From a virus, in the IMG/VR virus record IMGVR_UViG_3300030102_007482, positions 1 through 30,354 of that record: a DNA stretch of 30,354 nucleotides; one strand, written 5' to 3'. Position 1 is the stretch's first letter, and every line of letters begins with the position of its first letter. A program made the position numbers and the translations under genes. Positions 4,826 through 27,187 of this stretch are shown piece after piece. The notes below the pieces were generated by a model that made no database searches, was not told the origin of the DNA, and saw only the letters and a list, made by a program, of their open reading frames with translations.

Positions 4826-5919
4826 TGCATAAATATTTTTTTACAACCAAAGACTCCTTTATCAGTAGTGGTTCAAATCAAATTACGGGTGAAGATTTTA
4901 AAGATAAAAATACAGGACAAGATGAAGTTCTTGAATTAAAAAAAGTATTTTTTGATAGAACATTTCATTATCCAACTCGTGTTTTATTACAGTTTGATAC
5001 TGAAGAAATTGAAACTTATATTAGTTCATCTGTTTTACCAAGTGATTATAAACTAAATTTAAGACTTTATGAAACCGAAGGTACAAGTGGTTTAAGTGAA
5101 GAGTACACAATTGCTGCTTATCCTATAAGTGAATCTTGGAGTGAAGGAGTAGGTAAAGAGGCTGATGTTCCTAAAACAACAGATGGTTGTAGTTGGGAAA
5201 ACAGATCGTTTCCACAAGGCGGAGCTGAAGTCACTTGGGAAGATGCTGGTGGAACTTACATATCAGAAGATGAAGTTACACAATCATTTTCATCCGAATC
5301 ACCTGATATAAATATGGATATAACTTCTGTTGCTAAAAAGTGGTTTAGTGGTGAAAACAATAATTATGGTTTATTAATTAGACTTTCTGGTAGTAGAGAA
5401 ATATCGACTGGTAGTTTTGAAGATTTAAAATTTTTCTCAAGACAAACTAATACGATATACTCACCAAAAATAGAATTAAAATGGGATGACCATCTACCAG
5501 CAACTGGTTCAAATACAGGCAGTTTAACTGAACTAGATGTTAGTGGCAATAGTGAAAATTATCTTTATCCAATACATTTTAGAGAAGCGTATAAAGAAAA
5601 AGAAACTGTTAAGTTTAGGTTTGGCGCTAGAAAGAGATACATACAGAAAAGTTTTTCTACATCAGTTCAAACTGTAAGTGGTAGCTTCATACCACATGGA
5701 AAAGGTGCTTACTCTATCATTGATATGGCAACGAATGAGTCTGTTGTTCCATTTAGTGCTTACACAACAATGAGTTGTGATACAACTTCTAACTATTTTA
5801 AACAAGACCTAAATGCTTTTGAACCTAACCGTGCTTATAAGATACTAATAAAGGTCAATCATAATGATGGTCAGGAGATAATATACGACAACGATTTTGA
5901 ATTTATATTGAGGACTTAA
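4825..5919 (+). CDS. Structural protein with DNRLRE-like domain
   Basis: The 364-residue protein is rich in beta strands and aromatic residues. Residues about 160-215 (MDITSVAKKWFSGENNNYGLLIRL, then FFSRQTNTIYSPKIELKW) resemble the C-terminal signature of DNRLRE-type beta-sandwich domains found in extracellular and phage-tail proteins. The preceding region (FDRTFHYPTRVLLQFD, YTIAAYPISESWSEG) fits the start of the same fold. A second beta-rich domain follows (about 250-364). It begins with an ATG overlapping the gp6-like stop, so it belongs to the baseplate transcript. I infer a peripheral baseplate or fibre-attachment role. Confidence 0.65.
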   Translation: MHKYFFTTKDSFISSGSNQITGEDFKDKNTGQDEVLELKKVFFDRTFHYPTRVLLQFDTEEIETYISSSVLPSDYKLNLRLYETEGTSGLSEEYTIAAYPISESWSEGVGKEADVPKTTDGCSWENRSFPQGGAEVTWEDAGGTYISEDEVTQSFSSESPDINMDITSVAKKWFSGENNNYGLLIRLSGSREISTGSFEDLKFFSRQTNTIYSPKIELKWDDHLPATGSNTGSLTELDVSGNSENYLYPIHFREAYKEKETVKFRFGARKRYIQKSFSTSVQTVSGSFIPHGKGAYSIIDMATNESVVPFSAYTTMSCDTTSNYFKQDLNAFEPNRAYKILIKVNHNDGQEIIYDNDFEFILRT

Positions 5920-20503: not shown

Positions 20504-20794
20504 ATGAATACACCCTTAAATAAAATCGTACAATGGCAATTAGATTCAGGTCAACTTGACCATTGGACATCATATCACATAGCAGCTGGTTTATTTATTG
20601 CAAAAATAGCTCAATGGTTGGGAGCAACTGACTTTTGGGCAGTAATGTGGGTAGTTATAATTGGAATTGCATGGGAAATATTTGAATATATCATAGAGGA
20701 TTGGAGAGTCTATGGTAGTAAAAAGAAATGGGCATACAACACGGCAGCTGATATCATAGTAGAGGTTGGTGCTGCATGGTGGATGGTAGCTTAA
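20504..20794 (+). CDS. Small polytopic membrane protein (H...AG / WEIFEY type)
   Basis: The 96-residue product has a strong ribosome binding site (AGGAG at 20492-20496, seven bases before the ATG). Two to three hydrophobic segments are visible (about 24-42, 44-62, 80-95). Conserved-looking polar residues lie in or next to the membrane: DHWTSYHIAAGLFIA, then WEIFEYIIEDW and NTAADIIVEVGAA. This His...Ala-Gly...Glu...Asp pattern resembles VanZ-like or DUF2279-like small membrane proteins. The later gene at 23721 has a similar layout. It could be a holin or an envelope-modifying factor; the sequence does not decide. Confidence 0.65.
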   Translation: MNTPLNKIVQWQLDSGQLDHWTSYHIAAGLFIAKIAQWLGATDFWAVMWVVIIGIAWEIFEYIIEDWRVYGSKKKWAYNTAADIIVEVGAAWWMVA

Positions 20795-20813: not shown

Positions 20814-22112
20814 ATGTTAAAGAAACTATTAATAGGAATAATCCTAACATCATCTTTGTTCGGCGAAAATGAAATATGGAAGTTCTTACAATACTCAACT
20901 GCATATGGTAGTTTTAGTTTAAATGCACCAAGACACCAAGATGATAGATTTGCTATTGTTGGTGGATTATCTTCGGGTATTCTACAAGTAGAAAGAACTG
21001 AAAGAGAATTAGAACCTGATTTTCAAACATCATTTGGACTTCGTAAGATTGGTAGATTTCAATACGAACCAAAGAGAGGTGTGAAGTCTGCTGGTAAAGG
21101 TGGAACTTGGTATGATGGTTCAGAACAGAACTCTAACGAAAGTGCCACATTTGGTCCTGTAAAGGGTTGGGAGTATTTACTAAAATATTCTGAAGGTAGA
21201 CAATGGGGAGACGATTATGTCAATCAAGAATATTGGATACGATATATCGGCGAATGGGCTATGGCTAAAGTTGGTATGACAGAATTAGGTCTTGAAGATA
21301 TTAGTTATGTTCATGGTGATTTAAGAGTACATTGGACACCAGAAATTCTAAATGATAAATTACATCTTAGTATCGGTTTAAAACATAGACAACATCCTGT
21401 TTATGGATTTGATGCCATGGTATTAGACACGACTTGGTATAAAGGTGCATGGTGGCAATTTGCTGAAAAGGCATTTGGTATAGATGATAATATGTGGTAT
21501 GACTCAACTATGATTGACCCGAATTCACCAACTGGTTGGAAAAAAAGAACACTATACGAGGTAGATCCCGAAACAGGTGAAATCAGAGAGGTTGAAGGAG
21601 AAGGACCTTTTTGGAATGGTCGTGGAGAGTATTGGGGACATGATTGGTTGTGGAGAGATGTTGATGGTAGAATATTTGCTTATACTGATAGAGAATACTT
21701 TATATATCACTTTCCTAGAATGTTAGAAAATTACATCGGTGATAAGAAAAAAGAGTTAGGATATCAAGGTGAAACATCAATAGTTTTAGGTGTGGATTGG
21801 TATCACTACTCTGATAGTTGGTGGTTACACTCTTGGGGTAATTGGTTACCATACCATTATGGTCATACTGATTATGCTTACCATAATGCAGCACATTACG
21901 CAACACATTTAGAAGAGGGTGGTGAACCAAGTGAATTTATGTTAATGGAGCCGATGTGGCATAGTTGGAATGATTATGATTTTGGTGCTATATTTGGTGT
22001 AAAAATTAAAGATAATTTAGGTGTGTTTACAGAAGGTCGTTACTTAAATTATTGGGAAAGACCAGCTTATGATATTAAGTTCGGTGTAAATTATCAGTTT
22101 GTAGGATGGTAA
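20814..22112 (+). CDS. Exported, Trp-rich, outer-membrane-like protein
   Basis: A signal peptide is evident (MLKKLLIGIILTSSLFG then ENE). The mature ~415 residues are extraordinarily aromatic: I count about 25 Trp in 432 residues, with clusters such as WYKGAWWQF and WYHYSDSWWLHSWGNW. Alternating strands and the C-terminus FGVNYQFVGW, ending in an aromatic residue, suggest an outer-membrane beta-barrel. No named enzyme family is recognised. The ribosome binding site is AGGAG (20802-20806). The next gene, a lipoprotein, starts two bases after the stop, so the two are probably made together. Tail fibres have no signal peptide, so this is an infection-stage protein acting on the host envelope. 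Confidence 0.65.
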   Translation: MLKKLLIGIILTSSLFGENEIWKFLQYSTAYGSFSLNAPRHQDDRFAIVGGLSSGILQVERTERELEPDFQTSFGLRKIGRFQYEPKRGVKSAGKGGTWYDGSEQNSNESATFGPVKGWEYLLKYSEGRQWGDDYVNQEYWIRYIGEWAMAKVGMTELGLEDISYVHGDLRVHWTPEILNDKLHLSIGLKHRQHPVYGFDAMVLDTTWYKGAWWQFAEKAFGIDDNMWYDSTMIDPNSPTGWKKRTLYEVDPETGEIREVEGEGPFWNGRGEYWGHDWLWRDVDGRIFAYTDREYFIYHFPRMLENYIGDKKKELGYQGETSIVLGVDWYHYSDSWWLHSWGNWLPYHYGHTDYAYHNAAHYATHLEEGGEPSEFMLMEPMWHSWNDYDFGAIFGVKIKDNLGVFTEGRYLNYWERPAYDIKFGVNYQFVGW

Positions 22113-22113
22113 A

Positions 22114-22686
22114 ATGAAAAGATTACTTTTATTATTTTCAATATTATTTGTTACTTGTGAGGATGATAGACTACCTGAACCTCAAGAAAACATTCAAATG
22201 ATTGTAAATGGTGCAGAAATTATTGCACGAGAGTATTACGAAAGTATTACAACATATGGGGCATCAGAGGTACAAGAAGATGGTTCTATAAAAAAAATAT
22301 TTGTGCTTCACTTTCAGAGAGAAGATGGTAGAGTTACACCTGAAAAAGAACATTATGCTTTGATTATGTATGATAATGATGGAGCAGATAATGGACAACC
22401 AATAGATGAGAAACTATACATAGGTGGTGCTGCAGTTGATTCACTTAGACCTGATTTACTCGAAGCCACTAGTGGTAGAATCACATTAGAAATTGTAGGA
22501 CTATCCGATTTCACAGAATTTGCACAAGCAACAATTAGTAAGTATGAAGATGGTAAAGTAGATGGTATAGCTGATGGATACTTCTTCAATCCTTATAGAA
22601 ATGAAATGCAACATGGTGTAATTATTTTTGAGAACTTGGAAGTAGGTTCAGATCCAGAAGCTACATTTTATCAAGGTGTTTATTAG
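22114..22686 (+). CDS. Predicted lipoprotein
   Basis: The 190-residue product starts MKRLLLLFSILFVTCEDD: a short positively charged and hydrophobic signal followed by Cys18, a slightly non-canonical lipobox (F-V-T-C). The mature part begins with an acidic linker (EDDRLPEPQEN) and continues with a beta-rich domain (KKIFVLHFQREDGRV, HYALIMYDNDGADNG, GRITLEIVGLSDFTEFA). I do not recognise a family. It sits between the Trp-rich outer-membrane-like protein and the MshEN-domain protein, and its stop overlaps the next GTG start by one base. Lipoprotein sorting is inferred. Confidence 0.62.
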   Translation: MKRLLLLFSILFVTCEDDRLPEPQENIQMIVNGAEIIAREYYESITTYGASEVQEDGSIKKIFVLHFQREDGRVTPEKEHYALIMYDNDGADNGQPIDEKLYIGGAAVDSLRPDLLEATSGRITLEIVGLSDFTEFAQATISKYEDGKVDGIADGYFFNPYRNEMQHGVIIFENLEVGSDPEATFYQGVY

Positions 22687-23330
22687 TGAACGGTGATATA
22701 AAAATAGGCAAGTTATTGTGTGATGAGGATATCATCACTAAACGACAGTTGAATAAGGCACTACAAGTTCAAGTAAAGGGTGACAAACGCACAATTGGTG
22801 AAATATTAGTTGATTTAGGTTTTTGTGATTTTGATGATATAACCAATGCTCTTTTGGGTTCTGATGAAGATACCAAACATCATGAAGAAAAGACAGAGGA
22901 AATACATCAAGAACCTGTTAAAAAAGAAGAGTCAAAACAAAAACCAAAGAAAAAAAAGCCCGTTGAATTATCAGAAGATAAAGTTATGGGCACAAAGTTT
23001 ACAATGTCTGTTCAAACAATTGTAGCATTAGTTGCTATAATATCATCTGGTGTTGGTGGATACTATATGTTATTACAAGAGATAGAAGAAGCAAAAAACT
23101 TACCAGAACCACCATCTATCGAATCTATATTTGGTGATGAGTATCCATCTAAACCTGATGGACACAACTGGCCTCGTTCTTATGAACAATATAAAACACA
23201 AGTCGGTGGACTACAAAAAGATATGGATGATGTCTATGAATACATTGAAGAATTTGAAGAAAAAATTGAAGAACTCGAAAAACTTGTTTCAAATTTAAGA
23301 GTTGAAGTCGCTAAGAAAAAGGACAAATAG
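22686..23330 (+). CDS. Membrane-anchored protein with GspE/PilB N-terminal (MshEN-like) domain
   Basis: The 214-residue product starts at a GTG inside TAGTG. Residues 6-29 (KIGKLLCDEDIITKRQLNKA then LQVQ) have the exact spacing of the MshEN motif RLGxxLLxxGLLxxxxLxxxLxxQ, with Lys for Arg and Asp for Gly. A second, weaker copy follows at 36-59 (TIGEILVDLGFCDFDDITNA). MshEN domains sit at the N-terminus of type II secretion and type IV pilus ATPases and may bind cyclic di-GMP. Here there is no ATPase; instead come a Lys/Glu linker (60-100), one membrane helix (109-130) and a coiled coil (~170-205). It could dock on host assembly machinery, working with the pilin-like genes downstream. Domain call is good, function inferred. 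Confidence 0.7.
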   Translation: MNGDIKIGKLLCDEDIITKRQLNKALQVQVKGDKRTIGEILVDLGFCDFDDITNALLGSDEDTKHHEEKTEEIHQEPVKKEESKQKPKKKKPVELSEDKVMGTKFTMSVQTIVALVAIISSGVGGYYMLLQEIEEAKNLPEPPSIESIFGDEYPSKPDGHNWPRSYEQYKTQVGGLQKDMDDVYEYIEEFEEKIEELEKLVSNLRVEVAKKKDK

Positions 23331-23339
23331 GAGTTATTT

Positions 23340-23714
23340 ATGAAATACACATTAGGATTGTTATCGTTTCTTTCTGTTACTTTCGGTCAAGTAAATGATA
23401 AAAATTTTAAAGAAACAGTAAATGGTGGTATGGTTGTAGTTGTAGTCTCTGCGGAATGGCAAGAACAAGATTTTGATGAAGACATTTTAAAAGGTGTTAA
23501 AGGATACCAAGATTGTGAGATTGTAAGGATGAAAAGTGAAGATGCTCCAAAAGTGGTGAAAAAATTAAGATTTAGAAATTTTCCATCTGTAGCTTTATTT
23601 TACGATGGTTCTAAAAAAGAAACTTGGAAAGCAGACATGGATGGGGAATTAGATGTAGACAACAAAGACATTAAAAATGCTATAGACGATATTTTAGCAG
23701 AGGATGTATTTTAG
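23340..23714 (+). CDS. Exported thioredoxin-fold protein lacking the CxxC
   Basis: A signal peptide (MKYTLGLLSFLSVTFG, then Q17) precedes a thioredoxin-like domain. Where thioredoxin has A-E-W-C-G-P-C this protein has A38-E-W-Q-E-Q-D44, so both active-site Cys are missing. The cis-Pro loop is preserved (RFRNFPSVALFYDG, P82), as is the Trx-like final helix. Only one Cys (C59) remains, away from the usual site. It is thus probably a binding or scaffold protein, not an oxidoreductase. It has an AGGAG site and sits inside the envelope-protein cluster, between the MshEN-like and small membrane protein genes. Confidence 0.68.
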   Translation: MKYTLGLLSFLSVTFGQVNDKNFKETVNGGMVVVVVSAEWQEQDFDEDILKGVKGYQDCEIVRMKSEDAPKVVKKLRFRNFPSVALFYDGSKKETWKADMDGELDVDNKDIKNAIDDILAEDVF

Positions 23715-23720
23715 GAGAGT

Positions 23721-23990
23721 GTGATGAGTAAATTTAATGATTTTATGTTACAATGGGGTGTGGATAAGTTTTTACATTTTATGGCAGGTGCTGCTGGATT
23801 TGCTATAACAGGATCTTGGATAGTATTAGGTGTACTCGCATTTGGTAAAGAAATATATGATAAATATAATTCATCAAGTGGTTGGAGTAATCCTGATGCT
23901 TTTGCTACTATGTTGGGTGGTGTTGTAGCATTTGTTGGTATTATTTGTTGGAATTTTGTTACAAGTAGATTACCGTTTGTAATTTATTGA
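23721..23990 (+). CDS. Small polytopic membrane protein (DKFLHF...AG type)
   Basis: The 89-residue product (second Met, 23724, also possible) has three hydrophobic segments (about 18-28, 32-44, 62-80) and conserved-looking polar residues: DKFLHFMAGAAGFA, GKEIYDKYN and DAFATMLGGVVAF. This D-K-x-x-H-F...G...K-E-x-x-D...D...T-x-x-G pattern is that of DUF2279/VanZ-like small membrane proteins. The 20504 gene has the same plan. An intrinsic terminator follows 20 bases after the stop, so it ends the cluster that began near 20504. Holin, envelope or immunity functions are all possible. Confidence 0.65.
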   Translation: MMSKFNDFMLQWGVDKFLHFMAGAAGFAITGSWIVLGVLAFGKEIYDKYNSSSGWSNPDAFATMLGGVVAFVGIICWNFVTSRLPFVIY

Positions 23991-24010
23991 TACACAATGT
24001 AACATTTTGA

Positions 24011-24038
24011 AAACCTCACATTCGTGGGGTTTTTTTTT
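24011..24038 (+). terminator. Rho-independent terminator before the pilin-like operon
   Basis: A nine-pair stem (24011-24019 with 24024-24032, one T-G pair) around the four-base loop ATTC runs directly into a run of nine T ending at 24038. It lies 20 bases after the small membrane protein gene and separates it from the pilin-like genes. Confidence 0.8.
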
Positions 24039-24045
24039 ATTTATA
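24038..24045. promoter_or_regulatory. TATTTATA motif following the terminator
   Basis: The same octamer, starting at the last T of the terminator's T run, in the leader of the pilin-like operon. This gap (23991-24181) is otherwise A/T-rich and holds only the terminator and the inverted repeat. Confidence 0.3.
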
Positions 24046-24112
24046 CTCTAAGTTCAACAATATTAATACAAATTAAAAAAATAAAAAAAATTCTAAAAAA
24101 ACAACATTGTGG

Positions 24113-24130
24113 TATAGTTATTGTACTATA
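24113..24130. promoter_or_regulatory. Inverted repeat TATAGT-N6-ACTATA in the leader of the pilin-like operon
   Basis: A perfect six-base inverted repeat (24113-24118 and 24125-24130) lies about 50 bases before the first pilin-like start. It overlaps the best TATA-like elements of the leader (TATAGT, TACTAT), so it may be an operator on the promoter. The matching -35 is weak (TTGTGG at 24107-24112), so promoter placement is uncertain. Confidence 0.4.
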
Positions 24131-24169
24131 TAGGTAAGTACCAACAACGGTATGAAACTTAATTCAATG

Positions 24170-24174
24170 AGGAG
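24170..24174 (+). promoter_or_regulatory. Ribosome binding site deciding the first pilin-like start
   Basis: AGGAG lies seven bases before the ATG at 24182. The upstream in-frame ATG at 24152 has no such site, so 24182 is taken as the start. Confidence 0.75.
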
Positions 24175-24181
24175 AACTGAA

Positions 24182-24820
24182 ATGTTCACAAACTTAATTA
24201 AAAAACTTAAGAGTAACAAAGGTAATTCACTTGCTGAATTTGCTGTTACTACTGCTCTTATGGCTACATTAGCAACTACTGCTGCTCCAAAATTTGGTGC
24301 TGTTGGAAGTGGTGCTAAAGAAAAGAAAACGATGAATAACATCGATAAGATTTTAACTGTAGCTAATAACTACTACAACGCTGCTGTATCTGAAGAAGGA
24401 AAAGGTCGTTTTCCAGGTCAATCTAAGTATGACGCTCAAGTTGGTGGGTATGGTTTACCAGGTGATGTCGATACTGATGAAGCATTAGAAACATATGTAG
24501 AAGATATTCTTGCTGATATTGATTCTTATACTTCTGATAATTCAGACTTCGTATATGTGTTTTCACCAGCAATTGATGATGAAGATGCTCTACAAGGTGA
24601 TTGGATGAGTCTTGAAACATCAGTTGGTTTTGATGTTGATGGTGCCTCTGACTTCAAGAAAAACATGGGTAACAATGGTATATCATCACCCTTTCAGGAT
24701 GGTGCTTACATTTACTTAGTAATACCAGGTAGTGGAAGTGGTTCAACCGCTAAAGCTCCTGCTTTAATCGTAGCTGATGCTGAAAATCCAGCTCAGTTAC
24801 ATAAAACACTCGTACCGTAA
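24182..24820 (+). CDS. Type IV pilin-like protein, divergent N-terminus
   Basis: With the start at 24182 the 212-residue product has a 14-residue basic leader (MFTNLIKKLKSNKG) followed by NSLAEFAVTTALMATLATTAAPKF: a Gly at -1, Glu at +5 and a ~20-residue hydrophobic helix, the prepilin-peptidase site layout, although Phe at +1 is replaced by Asn. The rest contains FPGQSKYDAQVGGYG and a Gly/Ser-rich beta segment. It is the longest of four pilin-like products and the only one without FT[LI][IV]EL, so it may be the major or a specialised subunit. The leader has an inverted repeat and a terminator upstream, suggesting an independent transcript for 24182-26683. Confidence 0.7.
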   Translation: MFTNLIKKLKSNKGNSLAEFAVTTALMATLATTAAPKFGAVGSGAKEKKTMNNIDKILTVANNYYNAAVSEEGKGRFPGQSKYDAQVGGYGLPGDVDTDEALETYVEDILADIDSYTSDNSDFVYVFSPAIDDEDALQGDWMSLETSVGFDVDGASDFKKNMGNNGISSPFQDGAYIYLVIPGSGSGSTAKAPALIVADAENPAQLHKTLVP

Positions 24821-24829
24821 AAGATACGA

Positions 24830-24834
24830 AGGAG
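24830..24834 (+). promoter_or_regulatory. Ribosome binding site deciding the second pilin-like start
   Basis: AGGAG lies seven bases before the ATG at 24842 and only one base before the ATG at 24836, so 24842 (MKNNKGFTL) is the likely start. Confidence 0.7.
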
Positions 24835-24841
24835 AATGACA

Positions 24842-25270
24842 ATGAAGAATAATAAAGGATTTACCCTTATTGAATTAATAATGGTTACAATCATTTTAGG
24901 TATTCTTGCTGCTGTCGCTATTCCTAGATATGCCTCAACTGTTGTTAAGGCTGAGGAAGCTGCAGAAGATGCTGTAATATCTTCTATAAGAGCTGGCTTA
25001 GAAACATATGCCGTAGAACAACTTATGGAAAATGGTCGTAGAAGTTGGCCTGATAATCCTTGGGATGCGTTAGATACAAAGCCCGCTGGATATGATGCCA
25101 ATGATAATGATGATGCTGATACAGATGGTGAGTGGACATATAATACCACTACAAACAAAATCACACATCAGAGAGGTGACAATTCTAGAGTTGGTTGGGA
25201 ATATGATAAAGGAACTCAAACAGGTGATAATGCTGATGTCGGAACTTTAGGTTCTAGAGCTGATCTATAG
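24842..25270 (+). CDS. Type IV pilin / GspG-like pseudopilin
   Basis: The 142-residue product has a textbook prepilin start: MKNNKG then FTLIELIMVTIILGILAAVAIPRY, with Gly at -1, Phe +1, Glu +5 and the hydrophobic helix that anchors the subunit in the membrane before assembly. The globular part contains SWPDNPWDALDTKPAGYDAND and the strand pair EWTYNTTTNKITHQR ... VGWEYD, similar in plan to GspG-type pseudopilins. This is a clear match to the major-pseudopilin family of type II secretion and type IV pili. It follows the divergent pilin after 21 bases and precedes two more. No peptidase, assembly ATPase or secretin is in the window, so it must rely on the host's. Confidence 0.85.
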   Translation: MKNNKGFTLIELIMVTIILGILAAVAIPRYASTVVKAEEAAEDAVISSIRAGLETYAVEQLMENGRRSWPDNPWDALDTKPAGYDANDNDDADTDGEWTYNTTTNKITHQRGDNSRVGWEYDKGTQTGDNADVGTLGSRADL

Positions 25271-25279
25271 GAGTTACTT

Positions 25280-25723
25280 ATGAAAAGCTCTGCCGGATTT
25301 ACTTTGGTTGAGTTGATTGTAACTATAACATTAGTGGGGATTCTCGTTGGTTCGTTAGTCCCCACTTTTAATAGTTTGACAAATCGAACTCAAAGACAAG
25401 TAAATTTATCTAATATGGAGACTATAAAAAATACTTTCATGCAGTATTATTACTTAAACCATATGAAAGGAAACCCACACTTTCCGCAATTGCCAGAAAA
25501 TGGTTTAATGGATTCAACATACAGAGAAATTAATTTAGAGGATGGTAGAACACCAGATAATTTATTTAGTGGTGATTTACCATATAATCAGAACGACAAT
25601 CCATATAATTATTATTGGGATGATGATACAAGCAAATATGGATTTATAACAAAAAGAATTGTAATAAAAGATATAGATCCTGATAGCCCATCTCTAAACG
25701 AATTTGTAGTTGGAGAAATTTAA
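25280..25723 (+). CDS. Type IV pilin-like / minor pseudopilin-like protein
   Basis: The 147-residue product starts MKSSAG then FTLVELIVTITLVGILVGSLVPTF: Gly -1, Phe +1, Glu +5 and the hydrophobic helix, so it carries the prepilin-peptidase site. The rest is unlike the second pilin: a long helix (LTNRTQRQVNLSNMETIKN), PHFPQLPENG, and a Tyr/Asn/Asp-rich region (YNQNDNPYNYYWDDD). It has an AGGAG site (25269-25273, six bases before the ATG). The next start overlaps its stop (TAATG), so the two proteins are probably made in step, as minor pseudopilins are. Confidence 0.8.
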   Translation: MKSSAGFTLVELIVTITLVGILVGSLVPTFNSLTNRTQRQVNLSNMETIKNTFMQYYYLNHMKGNPHFPQLPENGLMDSTYREINLEDGRTPDNLFSGDLPYNQNDNPYNYYWDDDTSKYGFITKRIVIKDIDPDSPSLNEFVVGEI

Positions 25724-26121
25724 TGAATGGTAAAGGATTTACACTTATTGAATTAGTAATAGTAACTCTAATTATTGGTATTATGAGTGTTATGGTTGTT
25801 CCAAGATATGAAAAAAGAATTGAATTAGAAGAACTAAGAGCTGAAAAAAAGTTTACTTATAAAATTTGGGAAGGATTAGAAGATTACGCAAAATATAAAA
25901 AGGAAACAATAGGAGTAGAAAGGTGGCCTGCTCACCCACTATCTGTTTTAGGTCGTACAAGAGGTGTCGTTGTTACTCATGAGTTAGGAATACCTGACCA
26001 AGATAACGAATGGCAATTTGATGGAACTAAACTATATCACAGGAGAATGAATGATGAGATTTGGTATTTCACATATGATTCCACTAATTTTTATTTGTCT
26101 GAACTTCCAACTAAGTTATAG
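25723..26121 (+). CDS. Type IV pilin-like / pseudopilin-like protein
   Basis: The 132-residue product starts MNGKG then FTLIELVIVTLIIGIMSVMVVPRY, a canonical prepilin N-terminus with a five-residue leader and Glu +5. The C-terminal part repeats the plan of the second pilin: ERWPAHPLSVLG, EWQFDGTKLYHRR, then IWYFTYD, so the two are probably paralogues. The gene overlaps the preceding stop by one base, and its own last 71 bases overlap the start of the next gene. It is the last of four pilin-like genes in a row. Confidence 0.82.
   Translation: MNGKGFTLIELVIVTLIIGIMSVMVVPRYEKRIELEELRAEKKFTYKIWEGLEDYAKYKKETIGVERWPAHPLSVLGRTRGVVVTHELGIPDQDNEWQFDGTKLYHRRMNDEIWYFTYDSTNFYLSELPTKL
26041..26045 (+). 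promoter_or_regulatory. Ribosome binding site inside the fourth pilin-like gene
   Basis: AGGAG lies five bases before the ATG at 26051 and eight before the ATG at 26054. It supports a start of the next gene inside the fourth pilin-like gene, in a different frame. Confidence 0.65.
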
Positions 26122-26683
26122 TCAGGTTATACAGACAAGTCAAAATAAACTCTCAAACTTCAGAGGTAAATCTTGTGATGACACAGAGTTCAGAGACGAA
26201 TGGGGTAAACCTAATTGGAAAAATTATGGTCAATGGTTATCAGAATGTGATTCCTTACAAGATGTTTACTATGATTCTTTATTTGCTATAGATAGAGCAA
26301 AACGAGATAGAGAGAAAGCTATTCAAGATAGTTTAGATATGGAAGAAGTTGAAAACATGGATATCGATGCAGTATTTGACATGGATGCTATGTGGGAACA
26401 AGCTGAATGGGAAGAAATACAAGAAATAACAACTGAAGTATATGAAACAGAATACATTACAGCAGTTGCTGGTGTTCGTGGAGCTGAAGCTGAAGATGAA
26501 GCGTTAGCACATTTATACTATAGAAAATCAATGAAAGGAATTTCTATAGAAGATTATAAAAAAGCTTATGGTAAATTAAAGAACACAAGGGATGATTTAT
26601 TTGATAAAAATCCTAATCATCCTAAATTAATTAGAATGGATAAGTTGCTTTTAGATTTAAAAAGTAAAATAAAAAACTCTTGA
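26051..26683 (+). CDS. Secreted helical protein overlapping the pilin-like gene
   Basis: The 210-residue product starts MMRFGISHMIPLIFICLNFQLSYS then Q, a signal peptide with probable cleavage near residue 25. Its two Cys (in KSCDDTEF and LSECDSL) could form a disulphide. The mature protein is strongly helical and acidic (DIDAVFDMDAMWEQAEWEEIQE) with a charged C-terminus (RMDKLLLDLKSKIKNS). It overlaps the upstream pilin-like gene by 71 bases and has a good AGGAG site there. I do not recognise the family. It may be a periplasmic partner of the pilin-like proteins. Confidence 0.68.
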   Translation: MMRFGISHMIPLIFICLNFQLSYSQVIQTSQNKLSNFRGKSCDDTEFRDEWGKPNWKNYGQWLSECDSLQDVYYDSLFAIDRAKRDREKAIQDSLDMEEVENMDIDAVFDMDAMWEQAEWEEIQEITTEVYETEYITAVAGVRGAEAEDEALAHLYYRKSMKGISIEDYKKAYGKLKNTRDDLFDKNPNHPKLIRMDKLLLDLKSKIKNS

Positions 26684-26709
26684 CTTTTATGATTTTTTGT
26701 TGGTATATT
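26680..26709 (+). promoter_or_regulatory. Sigma-70-type promoter
   Basis: TTGACT (26680-26685), an 18-base spacer and TATATT (26704-26709) form a near-consensus sigma-70 promoter, starting within the last codons of the preceding gene. It would drive the 26738 gene. The -35 begins at the last four bases of the 26051-26683 gene. Confidence 0.6.
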
Positions 26710-26737
26710 TTAGTTAAATAAAAAAAGGTTATTGTTA

Positions 26738-27187
26738 ATGATATTAGAAACAGAAAAGATAGAAAGAATAATTATTGGTTTAATTTTTCTTATACTATCA
26801 CTTACATTTATTTTAAGTCCTAAAGATGAGCTCAAACAAGAATTTAAAATTGATGAAAATTCTTTTGAGATTTTTCCCTTAATAGCTTGGAAAACCACTC
26901 ATGAAAAATGGGATGGTGCTTGGGGTGACATTGTGAAAATAAAATATAGAGTTACACGCTCAAATACAAAATTATGGATTTATGATGTTGAAACTGGTGT
27001 GCTTGTGCATGAGCAACCATTTGACAGAGATCCTTGGGATGATGGTAGACACAGAGATTTTACTTATATTTGGAAATTATATAAAACTGAACGAACTAAA
27101 TACATACCATCTGGTCAATATGAAATTGTAGTAGGTGGTAGGTATGAAGGTGGTTTTGGTCAACTCAAAACAAAAATAAATATATAA
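26738..27187 (+). CDS. Membrane-anchored protein with FlgD-Ig-like C-terminus
   Basis: I start at the ATG at 26738, preceded by AAAGG (26724-26728); an upstream TTG (26732) is weaker. The 149-residue product has an N-terminal membrane anchor (ERIIIGLIFLILSLTFIL, about residues 9-27). Its exposed beta domain ends YIWKLYKTERTKYIPSGQYEIVVGG, which resembles the C-terminal repeat of FlgD-Ig-like domains (W-x... P-x-G-x-Y). There is no CTS-like tag. A sigma-70-type promoter lies just upstream. It is the last envelope gene before the tagged cluster. Confidence 0.62.
   Translation: MILETEKIERIIIGLIFLILSLTFILSPKDELKQEFKIDENSFEIFPLIAWKTTHEKWDGAWGDIVKIKYRVTRSNTKLWIYDVETGVLVHEQPFDRDPWDDGRHRDFTYIWKLYKTERTKYIPSGQYEIVVGGRYEGGFGQLKTKINI

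Follow-up and report, generated by a model that had tools for sequence, protein, structure and literature searches.

Several phage proteins acting on host pili have been described, among them Tip, Aqs1, PIT4, and the Pf4 inhibitor, for which a limitation of superinfection has been either proposed or shown (PMC11436027, PMC11656802, PMC10714779). The genes considered here would resemble this group as phage genes acting on host pili, but the known products are small inhibitors of PilB, PilS, or PilC and not pilin subunits. Single prepilin-like phage genes, such as PHROG 3433 "pilin" and those of Vibrio phages 033B and GH32, share with the present locus a phage-encoded prepilin-type N-terminus; in each case, however, only one gene is concerned and the similarity is confined to the N-terminal helix. 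A GspG match in Acinetobacter "phage" MD-2021a was set aside, as its flanks carry priA, epsF, and lnt and it looks like bacterial DNA. Comparable in another way are morons and auxiliary genes, with cyanophage psbA as an example, which are virus-carried, host-derived subunits of a host machine with their own promoter and terminator, whereas the present case would concern a surface filament of several subunits, together with a sigma-54 promoter of host type.

Single phage pilin-like genes and pilus inhibitors are therefore already known, while a multigene captured pilin set with the promoter type of its host appears to be new as judged from the open-access literature, where no account of a phage multigene, host-derived pilin operon with a host-type promoter was found. 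The set described below was analysed in a virus record of 30 kb, and "the window" denotes the whole stretch of 30,354 nucleotides.

The Prepilin Genes of the Cassette

Four adjacent open reading frames on the plus strand (24152–26121) encode small products with prepilin N-termini. Their starts were chosen from ribosome-binding sites and alignments, with AGGAG upstream of the starts at 24182, 24842, and 25280, and are the same as in a preliminary description of this DNA, which had claimed four adjacent prepilins, three FT[LI][IV]EL starts (P2, P3, and P4), and a GspG-like C-terminal plan in two products; all of this was borne out. P1 (24182–24820, 212 aa; its frame opens at 24152) is of the Neomarinimicrobiota "SLAEFAVTTAMMATLATTAAPKF" type and is followed by the GspG-like prepilin P2 (24842–25270, 142 aa), the prepilin P3 (25280–25723, 147 aa), and the GspG/GspH-like prepilin P4 (25723–26121, 132 aa), all on the plus strand. 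With the predicted cleavage site marked by a slash, their N-termini read MFTNLIKKLKSNKG/NSLAEF, MKNNKG/FTLIEL, MKSSAG/FTLVEL, and MNGKG/FTLIEL, respectively.

Against the curated cut-offs, P2, P3, and P4 scored 34.6, 28.7, and 25.1 bits with Pfam N_methyl (cut-off 21.2) and 31.8, 22.1, and 24.8 bits with NCBIfam TIGR02532 (cut-off 16.3). P1 gave no match to N_methyl or TIGR02532 in the Pfam and NCBIfam profile searches. It keeps the basic leader, Gly at −1, and Glu at +5 (G24 and E29 are invariant in 22/22 aligned phage copies) and is identified as a prepilin by homology, namely, by its full-length homologues, by these conserved residues, and by the position of the homologues in host pilin operons. 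The W-P-x-x-P ... E/D-W-x-[FY] C-terminal plan is present and conserved in P2 and P4. In comparison with GspG, the major pseudopilin of type II secretion, the N-terminal helix of P2 and P3 and the W-P-x-x-P and E-W-x-Y plan of P2 are alike, but the C-terminal domain is unmatched and the GspG equivalog profile TIGR01710 yielded only 43.7 (P2), 34.0 (P3), and 26.0 (P4) bits versus a cut-off of 88.85.

The dN/dS values between the window and its relatives ranged from 0.09 to 0.41 across P1–P4, so that all four genes are under purifying selection. The AlphaFold model of P2 consists of a single long N-terminal helix (residues 11–66) and then four strands (pLDDT 83.8), which is suggestive of a pilin-like plan; P1 did not fold (pLDDT 35.6). 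The Foldseek search with the P2 model returned nothing significant, the best pilin standing at rank 38 (E 3.2, TM 0.36). The preliminary description had regarded folds unrelated to pilins as decisive against its view; P2 alone could be modelled, and nothing indicates such a fold. Cleavage of P1–P4 by a prepilin peptidase and their assembly into a filament are predicted.

Distribution in Viruses and Downstream Genes

The window encodes gp25-like and gp6-like baseplate wedge proteins, the gp6 being 30–35% identical to that of Microcystis phage Mel-JY01 and of Flavobacterium immuto phages. The search with P2 led to 30 viral contigs of up to 131 kb, where the neighbours are nearly always the same, and the search with P1 led to 185 viral stretches encoding relatives, 80 of which were fetched; the cassette is thus widespread in ocean viruses. 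The T4-type capsid gene gp23 is found on four contigs with the pilin cluster, and its product is about 50% identical to that of Mel-JY01 and Flavobacterium immuto phages. The earlier assignment of the prepilin set to a tailed phage is in agreement with these data, since the window has baseplate genes and dozens of viral contigs of marine origin have the set, some of them with gp23. No match to the P1, 26051, 22686, or 20814 proteins was found in cultured phages.

The architecture was counted in 48 clusters with enough sequence, where S1 designates the protein encoded at 26051. The order P1-P4-S1, in which P1 is followed by one pilin gene only, of the P2/P4 type, was present in 23/48, followed by P1-P2-P3-P4-S1 (12/48), P1-P2-P2-P4-S1 (9/48), P1-P2-P3-S1 (2/48), and P1-P2-P3 alone (2/48). 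Common to these architectures are P1, one or more P2-type pilins, and, nearly always, S1.

S1 (26051–26683, plus strand) is a secreted acidic protein which follows the pilins in most phages, lying downstream of them in 46 of the 48 fully covered clusters. It is conserved in 11 aligned phages with a AGVRGAEAEDEAL block, and the searched host loci yielded no match to it. A different frame inside the end of P4 (26051–26121) encodes its signal peptide, and a similar overlap exists in many phages. The next gene (26732–27187, plus strand) encodes a small membrane-anchored protein, whose homologues adjoin the pilins as cassette members in many phages, the order with the 26051 gene being swapped in some of them.

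Host Operon and Origin of the Genes

The genome scan with P1 yielded 26 contigs of bacteria or archaea, and the titles of 14 name Neomarinimicrobiota or Marinimicrobia. The P1-bearing set includes the single-cell genomes AM-382-M06, AG-390-N21, AG-470-O07, and AH-657-N17, and several vaguely named P1-bearing genomes belong to the same GTDB phylum as Neomarinimicrobiota, in which a strong P1 was detected in about 17 of 245 genomes. P1 contigs labelled Alphaproteobacteria (L034), Balneolaceae (L040), Euryarchaeota (L044), and Crocinitomicaceae (L058) are probably mislabelled or misbinned. A short contig of AG-470-O07 (L039) bears P1 on both strands and resembles an inverted duplication produced by single-cell amplification.

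The host operon contains, in this order, prepilin peptidase, PilB (MshEN and T2SSE), an NtrC-type sigma-54 activator, PilC (T2SSF), one or more P1 genes, P2, P3, and further pseudopilins, to which the operon of AM-382-M06 (L035) adds an AAA ATPase and later components. By its gene content this Candidatus Neomarinimicrobiota (SAR406) operon is type II secretion/type IV pilus-like, and the host pilus or secretion genes that the preliminary description advised to look for were thereby found, with PilD, PilB, and PilC, in the probable host. The pilin genes that come first in the operon, single-cell genomes included, are collinear with phage P1-P2-P3, and this order persists where P1 is divergent and canonical, for example, in L076, whose divergent P1 member has GGFTLAELVVTTAVMGTLAAVAVPRF. 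The window proteins are up to 76% (P2; L046), 50% (P1, full length; L035), and 41% (P3; L035) identical to their host counterparts. The phage cassette and the host operon (L035, L046, L049, and L050) thus share the P1-P2-P3 order, a closely similar P2, and a sigma-54-type promoter before P1, whereas the host operon extends to PilD, PilB, the activator, PilC, and the later pseudopilins, in place of which P4 and the secreted partners stand in the phage. In L037, L044, and L049 P1 is present in arrays, several members of which have a sigma-54-type site to themselves, and L049 also has eight P2-type genes in a row.

In one Neomarinimicrobiota genome bin, a contig of 8.4 kb has a gp23 region of 79–84% nucleotide identity to the pilin-bearing phages L171 and L172. 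On the basis of homology and of single-cell and bin contigs, rather than of an isolate, the phages appear to infect Candidatus Neomarinimicrobiota. The cassette would link many ocean viruses to an uncultured and abundant phylum, and P1 together with P2 could be a marker for assigning viruses to it.

In the P2/P4 tree P4 forms a phage-only clade, the P4 profile finds host P2 genes, and P4 has no one-to-one host orthologue; probably, it is a P2-type duplicate that arose on the phage side. In the same tree phage P2 of L030–L033 groups with one paralogue of MED-G177 (L049; support 99/98), the second P2 of these phages groups with two other MED-G177 paralogues (100/99), and P2 of the window type takes no settled position among the remaining hosts; the starred branches require three or more label changes. 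In the tree of P1, the copy of the host single-cell genome AM-382-M06 falls within a phage group (100/95), although a single phage clade was not rejected (AU p 0.31), and in the P3 tree the phage copies form one clade (97/94). The interleaving of phage and host copies in the P1 and P2 trees suggests repeated capture, the argument for which lies in P2 and in the placement of L035 because of the P1 test and the single P3 clade. According to these trees the genes were probably captured from the host more than once.

Transcription of the Cassette and Assembly Machinery

The preliminary description had placed the leader of the pilin genes behind an intrinsic terminator, and this was confirmed by an 11-pair stem with a 4-base loop and a T run at 24009–24034 (plus strand). 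Terminator-like sites exceed those in shuffled sequences (5 versus 0.7), and this one is predicted to insulate the cassette from the structural genes upstream. Beyond it, at 72 nt before the start of P1, lies a sigma-54-type promoter element, TGGTATAGTTATTGTA (GG-N10-GT; 24110–24125, plus strand). Of 22 phage loci, 20 have the pattern TGGYAYNNNNNTTGYW in the 160 nt that precede P1, versus 0.06 expected from the background and 0.016 from shuffles, a count to be read as post hoc because the element was first recognised by eye in the phage upstream sequences from which the pattern was picked. The better tests are provided by the wider phage set, in which the pattern precedes P1 in 55 of 67 loci and is absent in its exact form from 12, and by the host sites. 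Host P1 genes have the consensus TTGGCAnAnnnTTTGCT at 40 sites, located 30–76 nt upstream where measured, and 36 of 49 pattern matches in the host loci are near P1-type genes. The −12 element of the phages is mostly TTGTA and not TTGCW, and the host sites include TTGTA and TTGTT too.

Of 19 host genomes, 16 have RpoN, which was detected in none of 11 viral records. With the −24/−12 GG-N10-G[C/T] arrangement, the fixed place, and the presence of RpoN and an activator in the host, the element is predicted to be a sigma-54 promoter. Together with the terminator it gives the cassette the make-up of a moron, the activity of both elements being predicted, and the cassette is most likely transcribed independently, under the pilus control of the host.

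Other signals were considered and rejected. The T4 late promoter TATAAATA occurs at 9 sites in the window versus 6.65 expected, and its sole plus-strand copy is at 5307. The sigma-70 scan of 23700–26800 showed no excess over shuffles. As regards a phage-encoded sigma-54 activator, the viral matches are weak AAA ones, a GAFTGA motif was lacking in each of three loci inspected, and the AAA protein of L012 matched no HTH family.

The preliminary description had also supposed reliance on the machinery of the host, which agrees well with the profile searches. No match over the cut-off to prepilin peptidase (Peptidase_A24) or to the pilus ATPase (T2SSE) was obtained in 24 viral records, mostly fragments, while prepilin peptidase is present in 18 of the 22 bacterial genomes with P1 relatives. 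The viral contig of 131 kb has only three N_methyl genes. Weak T2SSE matches were noted in seven phage contigs, and the one examined (L012, 14639–15832) is a MoxR/AAA_5-type ATPase, not PilB; a sub-cut-off A24 match in one viral contig contains stops. Since no phage peptidase or extension ATPase was found, the phage pilins most likely depend on PilD, PilB, and PilC of the host.

Outside the cassette, at a distance of about 1 kb on its upstream side, a gene at 22686–23330 (plus strand) encodes an MshE-related domain of the pilus-ATPase N-domain type, a charged linker, one transmembrane helix, and a coiled coil. It matches NCBIfam NF053729 (MshE-related c-di-GMP motif) with 40.7 bits (cut-off 38) over residues 6–56 only, as a single unit, and the PilF N-domain with E 2e-5; it was aligned by hhalign to the N-terminus of host PilB (86%, E 4.6e-6) and is conserved in ten aligned phages. 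A role with the cassette may be proposed; one at the assembly platform is suggested by the known contacts of the PilB/GspE N-domain (PMC11656802), and binding of c-di-GMP is putative.

Proposed Mechanism and Alternative Explanations

The main reading, for which a probability of about 0.6 is estimated, is that P1–P4 are a captured piece of the host pilin operon, which would be switched on, matured, and polymerised by the host and would re-specify the host filament. It replaces the independent "phage-specified" pseudopilus of the preliminary description, a claim that was given up, as the genes have their counterpart in the Neomarinimicrobiota operon, promoter type included. On the evidence of the sequences, T4-related phages carry the first pilin genes of this operon (P1, P2, and P3) and the P2-type duplicate P4. 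In view of the terminator and the host-like promoter, RpoN and the PilR/NtrC-like activator of the host pilin operon should turn the cassette on. The phage subunits, which would require host PilD and PilB/PilC, may then be matured and co-polymerised into the pilus or pseudopilus of the host, displacing its shaft subunits. At the assembly platform, the MshE-like membrane protein may act as a competitor of host PilB. The presence of host pilin genes with a host-type switch in a phage suggests that viral subunits probably take the place of host ones in the host filament during infection. The more specific proposal, that phage subunits under the host pilus promoter enter and re-specify the filament while the MshE-like protein steers the host motor, that is, substitution and not inhibition, is put forward tentatively.

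The altered filament would no longer be a normal receptor or machine, and superinfection or the loss of progeny to piliated cells may be reduced. Perhaps the changed filament limits superinfection, a benefit proposed because known phages disable pili (PMC11436027, PMC10714779). If true, this would be a route to the takeover of a surface machine different from pilus shut-off by small inhibitors, and with an operon pair from host and phage, takeover of the filament is open to direct test in a surrogate host.

Cyanophages supply the photosystem protein D1 (psbA) to their host, and the phage pilins could in a similar manner sustain the pili or secretion system of the host during infection, so that import, attachment, or secretion continues. 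The strong conservation of P2, the common promoter type, and purifying selection would fit such functional replacement; on the other hand, a whole set of shaft subunits with phage-only secreted partners exceeds what a turnover fix needs, and P1 is only about half identical to its host counterpart at best, so that this maintenance role is considered rather unlikely. Still less probable is that the pilins and the MshE-like protein act as poison or decoy, jamming the platform or feeding a pilin-sensing circuit with no need for a phage-containing filament. Pseudomonas phages do block pili via PilB (Tip, Aqs1) and PilS (PIT4) (PMC11656802, PMC11436027, PMC10714779), and the MshE-type domain at 22686–23330 points in the same direction; small inhibitors would suffice for this purpose, however, in some contigs the MshE-like gene does not adjoin the cassette, and the retention of three or four full-length conserved pilins suggests polymerisation.

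It is very improbable that the pilins belong to the virion or its assembly, as might be thought from the location of the cluster after tail and baseplate genes in the window, since a prepilin leader directs its protein to the inner membrane and the cassette, whose flanks differ from phage to phage, is equipped with a terminator and promoter of its own. A chimeric join of bacterial pilin genes to a phage contig, named in the preliminary description as a threat to its view and suggested by the host relationship of the genes, is refuted in practice by the recurrence of the same cluster on dozens of independent contigs, the longest of 131 kb, on which phage genes and a capsid gene are found, and P4 and the 26051 protein are phage-specific and P3 forms a phage clade.

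Other Genes near the Cassette

The protein encoded at 20814–22112 had no host homologue in 245 genomes, in a search run without a positive control. The gene at 23340–23714, conserved beside the MshE-like gene, encodes a secreted thioredoxin-like protein (Pfam E 0.0023, below the cut-off) with no CxxC pair. Short membrane proteins are encoded at 20504–20794 and 23721–23990, possibly as lysis or envelope genes, and the latter is weakly DUF2279-like (E 0.0069, below the cut-off). Downstream of the cassette in other phages, small secreted proteins (L120, 7387–7722; L134, 7127–7504; L124, 6503–6829) have ends that resemble, by eye, the TonB C-terminal domain.
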